Shown here piece by piece: positions 25,322 to 61,575 of a stretch of DNA of 64,000 nucleotides. The notes under the pieces are model-generated. The model was not told the DNA's origin, did not search any database, and was given only the letters and a program-made list of their open reading frames with translations. Every line of letters starts with the position of its first letter. The first letter of the stretch is position 1. The stretch comes from Planctomycetota bacterium (GTDB taxonomy: Bacteria > Planctomycetota > UBA8742 > UBA2392): NCBI GenBank assembly GCA_015075515.1, contig JABTUE010000001.1, positions 186,001 through 250,000 of the forward strand. The letters are read 5' to 3'. Both the position numbers and the translations under genes were made by a program.

Positions 25322-25823
25322 ATGCAACCACTGGCCTTTTTCATCACCATCACAACTTACGGCACCTGGCTTCCGGGCGACGATCGCGGCAGTCATAGAT
25401 GACGAACACAACATTCACGGCCAGGCGCTGGCTCCGGGCAACAAAGCCCGCAAACAGGCCAACGCCGAGAAGCTCAAGCACCCACCGGTCATTCTTGATG
25501 CAGAGGCCCGCGAAATTGTTCATCGAACCATTGAAGAAGTATGCGGTCATCGCGGCTGGAGACTGCTCGCGGCCAACGTGCGCACGAATCACCTTCACGT
25601 TGTGATCGCCGCCGCGGCTACAGTGGACAAGGTTCACAACGACATCAAGGCCTACGCGACTCGTCGGCTTCGCGAGGCTGGATGGGCGCGCCCCGATCAA
25701 AGGGTATGGACCCACGACGGAAGTAAACACAGGCTGTTCACGGCCAAGGCGGTTGCCCATGCTGTGCACTACACGCTGTATGAGCAGGACAATCGGGAGA
25801 GATTCAAGCAGGTGGAGAGTTGA
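25322..25823 (+). pseudogene. REP-associated tyrosine transposase (RAYT, Y1/IS200-like), frameshifted
   Basis: ATG 25322 opens MQPLAFFITITTYGTWLPGD, the typical RAYT N-terminus, but frame 1 ends at TGA 25400-25402. Shifting +1 from about 25389 continues a coherent protein (DDEHNIHGQALAPGNK...) through the HUH motif NHLHVVI and the catalytic-Tyr region HAVHYTLYEQD to TGA 25821-25823. The total would be about 165 aa, a normal RAYT size. It is therefore a single-frameshift remnant unless the shift is a sequencing error. RAYTs nick single-stranded REP hairpins and are thought to spread them; REP units flank it on both sides. Confidence 0.85.
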
Positions 25824-59807: not shown

Positions 59808-60263
59808 ATGCCGGACTACAAACCTTTGATTGACCAGATTGCGCAGAAGTCCGGCGTGTCGTTTCGAAAGGCCGGTCGCAAGGATTTGAAGAAGCTAGCC
59901 AAGTTGCGGCTGCCTGAGTCCGTGGCAGAGTTCTACCGCGAATATGAACCTACGGAACCGACGGAAGACCCGGTGCGCATTTGGCCGCTTGAAGCGCTGT
60001 TTCAAGAGAACGAAGAAGGCATTCCGGGCATCTGCACGTCTCGCCATGGATACGTGGTGTTTGCCTCCAACCATAACGGCGACGCTTACTGTTTTGATCT
60101 CACATCGGGGCAAAGCGGTGATCCTCCAATCGTGTTAATCTCCCATGACGAGGTGGACGAGGACTCACCCGCAGAACAGGTCGCCAGGGCAGCCGTACCG
60201 GTCGCGGACAATCTAGGCGATTTTCTCAAACAGTTCGCCGCAGGCACACTTCGGACGGAATGA
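59808..60263 (+). CDS. SMI1/KNR4 (SUKH) family protein
   Basis: 151 aa. The SUKH pattern is visible: LAKLRLPESVAEFYREYE near the N-terminus, IWPLEALFQEN, and VVFASNHNGDAYCFDLTSG. Many SUKH proteins are immunity factors against contact-dependent or secreted toxins; others act in signalling. No toxin gene is adjacent. Base composition is lower in GC than tldD, suggesting recent arrival, and the stop codon is followed directly by the first BIME repeat. Confidence 0.85.
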   Translation: MPDYKPLIDQIAQKSGVSFRKAGRKDLKKLAKLRLPESVAEFYREYEPTEPTEDPVRIWPLEALFQENEEGIPGICTSRHGYVVFASNHNGDAYCFDLTSGQSGDPPIVLISHDEVDEDSPAEQVARAAVPVADNLGDFLKQFAAGTLRTE

Positions 60264-60265
60264 GT

Positions 60266-60353
60266 GCGCCCTTCAGGGCGCCCGCAAATAGCCGGTGGCG
60301 TAAGCCACCGGTTCGCTTCCCCAACGTTCCAAGCCCCGTCAGGGGCGACAGAG
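60266..60353 (-). repeat. BIME copy 1 (minus orientation)
   Basis: A composite of three hairpins: GCGCCCTTCAGGGCGC, CCGGTGGCGTAAGCCACCGG, and AAGCCCCGTCAGGGGCGAC. It begins 2 nt after the SUKH stop codon. Its reverse complement has the same order of elements as the copy at 60388. Confidence 0.85.
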
Positions 60354-60387
60354 GGGTACATGGTTGGACAGCGGCAGCCAAGCCGGT

Positions 60388-60479
60388 TGTGTCGCCCCTG
60401 CGGGGCTTGGGTTCTTCTTTGGTTCTCTTTCCGGTGGATGACGCCACCGGCTATTAGCGAACGCCCCTGCGGGGCGAAC
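60388..60479 (+). repeat. BIME copy 2 (plus orientation)
   Basis: Starts TGTGTCGCCCCTGCGGGGCT, contains CCGGTGGATGACGCCACCGG and ends ACGCCCCTGCGGGGCGAAC. It is nearly identical over about 90 nt to the copy at 61191. It is followed by GGCGGCGGGGCGAAC-type tandem units (60514-60556). Confidence 0.9.
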
Positions 60480-60637
60480 GGCAAGGTCAGGGGCGGCAAA
60501 GCCGCGGGTTGCGGCGGCGGGGCGAACGGCGGCGGCGGGGCGAACGGCGGGGTGGCTATACGGAGTTGGAGTGTTCGTCAGACACCGCCGTTGCCGGAAG
60601 TAAAACACCGGCCTTTCGGCCGCCGGTCTGGCCGTGA

Positions 60638-60724
60638 GCGCCCAAAGGGCGCCCGCCAATTGCCGGGGGCGTCAGCCCCCGGATGTTTGCCCCGCCTGTT
60701 CAAGCCCCGTCAGGGGCGACAGAG
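60638..60724 (-). repeat. BIME copy 3 (minus orientation), overlapping the RAYT 3' end
   Basis: Same architecture as copy 1: GCGCCCAAAGGGCGC, CCGGGGGCGTCAGCCCCCGG with compensatory changes in both stem arms, then CAAGCCCCGTCAGGGGCGAC. The last 25 nt code the C-terminal residues (about SVAPDGA) and stop of the transposase. Confidence 0.85.
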
Positions 60725-61176
60725 ATCCCCAACGACGGTGTGTTCGGTTCATCCGATATGCCGTGAACTTCCTTGAAGCGTTTCAACTCGTCATGAAACG
60801 AGTGCTGCTTGTGATGCTCGGCCTGGTTGCGGATGTACGCGCGGGCATTTTCAACGTGTGAGATGCTGACCGAAAAGATGCCGTAGCCTTCCTGCCAACC
60901 GAAATCGTGTCGGGGCCATGTTTCGTGAATCCACTTTGATGTGTTGGCCTTGATGTCGCGGAGCACGTCCGAAATGGCGTGGCGCGGGGCGAAACCGATC
61001 AGCAGATGGCAATGGTCTTCGGCGCCGCCGCCCTCCAGCAGCACACAGTCGCGTTTGCGCACGATGCCGCCGATGTAAGGGTAAAGGCGCGCGGCGATAT
61101 CGGGCGTGATCAGGGGGCGACGATCCTTGCACGCGAAGATCACGTGCAGCGTGACGCTGTGGAATGTGCTTCCCAT
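60700..61176 (-). CDS. REP-associated tyrosine transposase (RAYT), apparently intact
   Basis: 158 aa. A Y1/IS200-like HUH nuclease domain: HUH motif EDHCHLLIGF (about 52-61) and the catalytic Tyr in RAYIRNQAEHHK (about 110-121). N-terminal HVIFACKDRRPLITPD is typical. RAYTs lack the multi-turn mobility of IS200/IS605 but nick REP hairpins at GTxG-like stems. It sits between inverted BIME copies 3 and 4, and its stop lies inside copy 3, which suggests it moved or co-evolved with the repeat. ATG at 61176. Confidence 0.93.
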   Translation of the reverse strand: MGSTFHSVTLHVIFACKDRRPLITPDIAARLYPYIGGIVRKRDCVLLEGGGAEDHCHLLIGFAPRHAISDVLRDIKANTSKWIHETWPRHDFGWQEGYGIFSVSISHVENARAYIRNQAEHHKQHSFHDELKRFKEVHGISDEPNTPSLGISVAPDGA

Positions 61177-61190
61177 GCGGGCAGGATAGG

Positions 61191-61283
61191 TGTGTCGCCC
61201 CTGCGGGGCTTGCGGATTTCTGTGGTTCTTTTTCCGGTGGCTGACGCCACCGGCTATTCACGAACGCCCCTGACGGGGCGAAC
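61191..61283 (+). repeat. BIME copy 4 (plus orientation), 15 nt upstream of the RAYT start
   Basis: Starts TGTGTCGCCCCTGCGGGGCT, contains CCGGTGGCTGACGCCACCGG and ends ACGCCCCTGACGGGGCGAAC. It forms, with copy 3, an inverted pair around the transposase. Confidence 0.9.
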
Positions 61284-61391
61284 AGCGGGGCGGCGGCGGG
61301 ACAGCGGTGGGGCGGCGGCGGGACAGCGGTGGGGCGAACAGCGGGACAGCGGTGGGGGGCGAGGCAGGGGTGTCCCCCCTGACGGGGCTTG
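61284..61391. repeat. GC-rich tandem repeats and a partial BIME
   Basis: About three copies of a 22-nt unit containing GGCGGCGGGACAGCGGTGGG (the third degenerate), followed at 61370-61391 by a fragment TGTCCCCCCTGACGGGGCTT that matches the first hairpin of the BIME. Confidence 0.8.
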
Positions 61392-61466
61392 GGGGGGGCG
61401 GGACAGTGGGCCTTGTGGGGCCTCCGCAAATGGTCAAAAAGTCGTCAACACCGGCCCCGGTTAAGG

Positions 61467-61575
61467 TATAGTCAAGACACAGGCCAATACCGCTGCGGTT
61501 GCGCCAGCCCCATGCCCGGGGTCCAAGACCACGCAGCAACGCAAAAAGAGGCCGGGGGGTTCCCCCGGCCTTTTT
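61467..61575 (+). ncRNA. Possible small transcript ending at a strong terminator
   Basis: A TATAGT (61467-61472) that could be a -10 lies about 80 nt before a strong terminator hairpin, with no ORF between. The intervening sequence can pair GCTGCG with CGCAGC around a C-rich loop. The -35 is poor. I do not recognise a known RNA family; SRP RNA, tmRNA and 6S signatures were looked for and not seen. Confidence 0.25.
61550..61575. terminator. Bidirectional rho-independent terminator
   Basis: Stem GGCCGGGGG (61550-61558) / CCCCCGGCC (61562-61570) with TTTTT after it on the plus strand and AAAAAG before it, so it works for either direction. It ends the sigma/anti-sigma operon on the minus strand, 22 nt beyond its stop. 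Confidence 0.92.

Follow-up and report, generated by a model that had tools for sequence, protein, structure and literature searches.

A hairpin array brackets a transposase gene

We analyzed a window of 64,000 nucleotides, i.e., the whole stretch C1:186001-250000 of a planctomycete genome of 3.87 Mb (G000); all positions refer to this window. A repeat search and a covariance model identified an array at 60264–61284 that contains four copies of one element, each about 86–94 nt long, with three hairpins (H1 to H3) and in alternating orientation. Copy e1 (60266–60351, plus strand) consists of H1 (60266–60281), a foot ATAG (60288–60291), H2 (60292–60311) and H3 (60333–60346), which is followed by CGACA. 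Its inverted partner e2 (60389–60476, minus strand) lies 37 nt away, and the two form a gene-less, inward-facing pair. Copies e3 (60637–60722, plus strand) and e4 (61192–61279, minus strand) bracket the gene tnpA on its downstream and upstream side, respectively. The general layout is H1, 6–8 nt, [N]TAG, H2, about 19–24 nt, and H3; in the window copies the second spacer is about 20 nt long and H3 is followed by CGACA. The foot of e3 is degenerate, with AATTG in place of ATAG, and TAG is lost. A partial fifth copy, an H3-like hairpin alone, was found at 61371–61392 (minus strand) from inverted repeats I5 and I6.

The tnpA gene (60700–61176, minus strand) encodes a protein of 158 amino acids that Pfam, NCBIfam, alignment and an AF2 model assign to the HUH/Y1 transposases, of the subclass 1.2 type. 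The inner end of e4 lies about 15 nt before its start codon, and its stop codon (TCA on the plus strand, 60700–60702) is inside e3, directly before hairpin 3. A previous sequence-only reading had placed the gene between copies 3 and 4 of a three-hairpin element with the stop codon in copy 3, and our coordinates agree. It had also described the element as longer than the classic enterobacterial REP pair, and our analysis supports an element that exceeds classic REPs in length. The orientations had been given as -, +, -, +; they do alternate, but read in the order H1 to H3 the signs are +, -, +, -.

As single-stranded DNA, each of e1 to e4 folded more stably than all of 200 dinucleotide shuffles (200/200; z −4.3 to −4.8), with the outer hairpins rearranged in the minimum free energy fold of e2. 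Adjoining the array, a strong hairpin at 61545–61575 runs into a stretch of T (AAAGAGGCCGGGGG/CCCCCGGCCTTTTT) and is terminator-like. On the other side, a gene of the SUKH/SMI1-KNR4 family (59808–60263, plus strand) lies between TldD and the array; a congener, G001, has a different stretch there. TldD is the left neighbor of the locus in both genomes (G001:C2), whereas the right neighbors lie elsewhere in each genome. Hence, the border of a rearrangement or insertion is near the array.

The encoded protein resembles TnpA_Y1 subclass 1.2

The protein matched Pfam PF01797 (Y1_Tnp) with 90.5 bits and the NCBIfam IS200/IS605 model with 68.3 bits, above cut-off. Its key residues are H55-C-H57, W94-Q95, Y114, Q118, and H121-H122, of which H55, W94, Q95, Y114, Q118, and H122 were invariant in the homologue alignment. 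The tyrosine motif Y-I-R-N-Q-A-E-H-H is accompanied by W-Q and DHxH, and the class size of about 150 amino acids fits. Quentin et al. (2018) described subclass 1.2 by the signature Y---Q--HH and W-Q, with members mostly in Cyanobacteria and Bacteroidetes (PMC6006769). Y---Q--[HR]H was present in 65 of 68 homologues. None of the 68 had the class-2 motif Y---NP, and tnpA itself reads YIRNQAEHH. The RAYT model NF047646 gave no match to tnpA at 1e-3 in the NCBIfam scan.

We calculated a tree from the homologues together with IS200 references and 23 class-2 proteins from the same genomes. In this tree, class 2 split off with a support of 0.93, with tnpA on the class-1 side; subclass 1.2 and IS200 were weakly separated (0.54). 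For the AF2 model (pLDDT 85.6), matches to TnpA structures of IS200/IS605 reached about 1e-8 and the match to the Escherichia coli RAYT 1e-4, and the nearest solved relatives were the TnpA proteins of IS608 and ISDra2. Judged from motifs and tree position, tnpA fits TnpA_Y1 subclass 1.2. Given the subclass 1.2 motif, the class-1 side of the tree and the IS200/IS605-like structure, the name RAYT in its published sense, which the sequence-only reading had used, is inapplicable.

The window genome contains a single subclass 1.2 gene. Other genomes of the family have 0–10 such genes, diverged within a genome; G001, for example, has nine homologues with 39–82% identity to the window protein. Across the phylum, 66 of 294 sampled genomes (about 22%) carry a gene of this type.

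An ordinary autonomous IS200/IS605 insertion sequence, with the elements as its left and right ends, would account for the nearest solved relatives and the NCBIfam match, for the shared fold and catalytic layout, and for hairpins that bracket the gene, with cleavage sites offset from them. Moreover, the left-end palindrome of IS608 has a second hairpin on its 3′ side (PMC5934647). We nevertheless consider this unlikely. The ends are mirror images rather than strand-specific left and right ends, and no tnpB was seen among the genes adjoining the window locus. High-identity gene copies are missing as well, the divergence among the G001 genes contrasting with about 99% identity between published IS copies, and gene-less copies of the element outnumber the genes.

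Hairpins and TAG are kept while the spacer drifts

We compared H2 in 28 elements across loci. In this alignment 99.1% of the cells were paired and six of eight pairs had changed on both sides (0/500 shuffles). Selection for folding had been proposed from the stem variants CCGGTGG/CCACCGG and CCGGGGG/CCCCCGG in the array. This is a true compensatory change, but it concerns one pair in one copy; the proposal holds, with the H2 covariation as its strong evidence.

In clean comparisons of orthologous copies between G006 and G007, stems were 0.96–1.00 identical versus 0.64–0.88 for the rest of the element. Two ortholog pairs from sister genomes gave 0.96/0.77 and 0.97/0.64 for stems and rest, with one compensatory change each. 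Loci L099 and L154 were tried as a further orthologous pair, but their elements did not align as homologous; they are included in the ortholog totals (stems 0.85, rest 0.74) and excluded from the clean comparison. Among paralogous copies within one genome, identity was 0.89 for H2, 0.98 for H3 and 0.34 for the spacer. The hairpins of paralogous copies are kept alike either by selection at each site or by exchange between copies. Drift affects the spacer, whereas the hairpins are conserved, as is [N]TAG, which is located a few nucleotides past H1 at the H2 foot.

Stems that persist in orthologous copies while their surroundings change would also be found if these were host regulatory or terminator hairpins, selected place by place with a transposase nearby by chance, and one dispersed pair does lie between apparently convergent genes. 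As the sole explanation we regard this as very improbable, because it does not account for the mirror-image copies around a single gene family, for the conserved distance to TAG, or for sister species that carry different element types at one site. A role as host hairpins may exist in addition to a transposase system.

The element accompanies subclass 1.2 genes

In the window and at most subclass 1.2 homologues in Planctomycetota, the gene lies between copies that face inward. With few exceptions, the planctomycete loci of the first set scored far above shuffles when we aligned the left flank with the reverse complement of the right flank. Near the genes, 85 elements faced inward (43 + 42) and 16 outward. 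The feet of 101 near elements were GTAG (65), TTAG (19), and ATAG (16), where only the first base is informative since the finder itself required TAG.

We then used a held-out set of 40 previously unused loci, most of them from other planctomycete families; the gene could be located in 34. At 27 of these 34, the inverted flanks beat all 100 shuffles, and in a fifth of the 34 they were absent. A strict element finder detected at least one element at 13 of the 34 loci, on both sides at nine, and missed 21; it found none at 23 class-2 RAYT loci of the same genomes or in 200 shuffles. With the covariance model, 37 of 42 sources, i.e., the window and homologue loci, some of which had supplied the model, matched at E < 0.01. 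The five sources without a match at this threshold were four Bacteroidales loci and one cyanobacterial IS200-like locus.

Class-2 RAYTs of the same genomes might move the elements in trans, so that the proximity to subclass 1.2 genes would be a side effect. NF047646 has matches in 16/16 family genomes, nine of them above cut-off, and the [G]TAG at the foot of H2 resembles the REP foot. Element number correlated with the number of NF047646 matches (rho 0.90) and with the number of subclass 1.2 genes (rho 0.85). We had considered the latter correlation as evidence for the subclass 1.2 enzyme and dropped it; as the RAYT model correlates equally well, copy number cannot single out this enzyme. The bracketing is, however, specific to subclass 1.2 genes. 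Among 26 class-2 loci the covariance model gave one marginal match only, in line with the strict finder's 0/23, which makes movement by class-2 RAYTs distinctly unlikely and is a further point against calling tnpA a RAYT. The window itself has a Y1-like ORF stretch at 25485–25781 (plus strand) that matches NF047646 with 26.4 bits, below cut-off; similar weak matches occur in many family genomes.

The new point is thus a REP-like element beside subclass 1.2 genes, contrary to the published description, in which the subclass was entered without any REP (PMC6006769). In open-access papers we found no later treatment of the subclass. The published search required GTAG or GTGG 0–2 nt 5′ of the stem (PMC6006769) and presumably missed the element for this reason; a second reason may be that its members of the subclass came mainly from Cyanobacteria and Bacteroidetes.

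Copies are dispersed in related genomes

The covariance model found between 2 and at least 93 copies per family genome, counts that are lower bounds with 150 candidates scored in each. In the window genome, the system is small: there were 9–10 matches including the four local copies, and outside the array we found a solitary copy with a strong match (C3:806425) and about five with weaker matches, of which some clearly had another stem type. The genome-wide search proposed in the sequence-only reading hence revealed an element that is dispersed in relatives and not abundant in the window genome. Its idea of a Y1 transposase with a cognate palindromic element survives, because in relatives the element is associated with such genes; dispersed copies are present there as well. 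The term "live" goes beyond what the window genome shows with its one gene and few copies, and what relatives show is presence and absence rather than current movement.

For 107 of the 150 matches listed, none of the homologues found lay within 1 kb. Gene-less neighbors close to each other numbered 29; 22 of them faced inward, most of them separated by 10–19 nt. We compared joined flanks at seven sites with a query of 3,929 bases. One intergenic site (L095 at G006:C27, L145, L147, L148) had a pair in G006, a different element type in G007 and nothing in G004 and G002, although homology of the G002 contig was limited to one side. A pair at another site was present in G006 and absent from G002, with the left border at H1. 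Gene-less, inward-facing pairs are thus dispersed in the genomes of relatives and present or absent between species. Congeneric species thus differ by gain or loss at conserved sites, which is not proof of current activity.

The stem type GTAGCCACGGGTG was found in 8 of 294 genomes of the phylum, a rarity to be expected since it is just one stem type. Sets of equal-scoring copies in G001 were examined as signs of element mobility and rejected; they are parts of larger repeats of 1–1.2 kb and hence no evidence that the element moves alone. G001 contains segments of about 0.8–1.2 kb, 90–98% alike, with elements beside short direct repeats and unknown ORFs (L183–L187, L191, L198, L200, L201). The pairs L096, L099, and L100 share about 25–35 nt past H1 (TCACG-TTCGTTTGCAGTCGTAC); in these cases, the unit that is repeated may extend further.

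A probable REPtron-like locus with a class-1 transposase

We propose that the locus is probably REPtron-like and encodes a class-1 HUH transposase of subclass 1.2, with the three-hairpin element as the enzyme's cognate DNA in a REP-like role. Mirror-image bracketing of the gene, together with gene-less inverted pairs scattered in relatives, makes it probable that subclass 1.2 spreads repeats by a system of its own. We are more confident of the cognate relation than of where the enzyme cuts and how the element moves. TnpA would bind the hairpins on single-stranded, probably lagging-strand, DNA via its HUH/Tyr114 site and cut near TAG. An inverted pair would be moved in trans by TnpA as a REPIN-like unit, and the tnpA gene itself would be mostly inherited. 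In the window, e1/e2 would then be a gene-less pair and e3/e4 a pair that carries the gene. Cleavage and current mobility in this system are what we infer. Several findings speak against the cognate-element reading: copy number fails to distinguish this enzyme from the RAYTs, a fifth of the held-out loci lack inverted flanks and 21 of 34 are missed by the strict finder, in the window genome the element is nearly confined to the locus, and the spacers of paralogous copies have no similarity (0.34), which is unexpected under simple recent copying.

The locus shares with published subclass 1.2 members the motifs Y---Q--HH, DHxH and W-Q, a length of about 150–160 amino acids, low copy number, and diverged intragenomic copies (PMC6006769). 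It differs in that the members here, in Planctomycetota and elsewhere, are bracketed by a structured element. As in REPtrons, in which class-2 TnpA_REP occurs with REP/BIME (PMC2817692, PMC8266576), an HUH/Y1 enzyme is flanked by palindromes of alternating orientation with a [G]TAG foot 5′ of a hairpin, and copies are dispersed in relatives. In contrast to REPtrons, the protein is of class 1, the element has three hairpins (about 90 nt) instead of one, and the foot is [GTA]TAG. REPINs (Bertels and Rainey 2011, PMC3116915) are likewise gene-less inverted pairs that act as a unit with conserved ends and a variable interior; here, however, each half is a three-hairpin element and the pair spans about 190 nt.

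A hairpin–TAG module occurs in two phyla

The distance from hairpin end to TAG had a sharp peak at 7–10 nt in planctomycete, held-out, and Bacteroidales loci; neither class-2 loci nor far flanks had such a peak. The Bacteroidales module reads hairpin-NNAGCTCGGTAG and occurs in both orientations around the gene. The H2-based finder detected no element at the Bacteroidales loci, and the reduced module was visible only by spacing counts. These loci are close copies of each other and therefore represent few independent cases.

By analogy, two roles of TAG are conceivable: it could guide the enzyme from the H2 foot, as its counterpart does in REPs, or it could be where the DNA is cut on the 3′ side of H1, which would resemble the IS608 right end. 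The latter reading uses what we take to be the right-end distance to the cut site in IS608. The IS608 end components used in this comparison are those of PMC5934647.

For a wider proposal, the balance is even: subclass 1.2 HUH transposases might, alongside IS200/IS605 and class-2 RAYT/REP, constitute a distinct system that spreads repeats, with a shared recognition module of hairpin, 7–10 nt, and TAG in at least two phyla and, in Planctomycetota, a three-hairpin element whose inverted pair is mobile. Subclass 1.2 had been described as related to IS200 but without IS features or REPs, which left it without a substrate. The element is now a candidate for this substrate that can be put to a direct test; it has a fixed layout and lies beside the gene in several planctomycete families, and Bacteroidales have a reduced form of it. 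A further suggestion is that class-1 enzymes, like those of class 2, gave rise to REP-like systems. For other phyla, hairpin, 7–10 nt, TAG is a short search rule. In the Bacteroidales loci L071–L078, subclass 1.2 genes occur with tandem and inverted hairpin-AGCTCGGTAG repeats.
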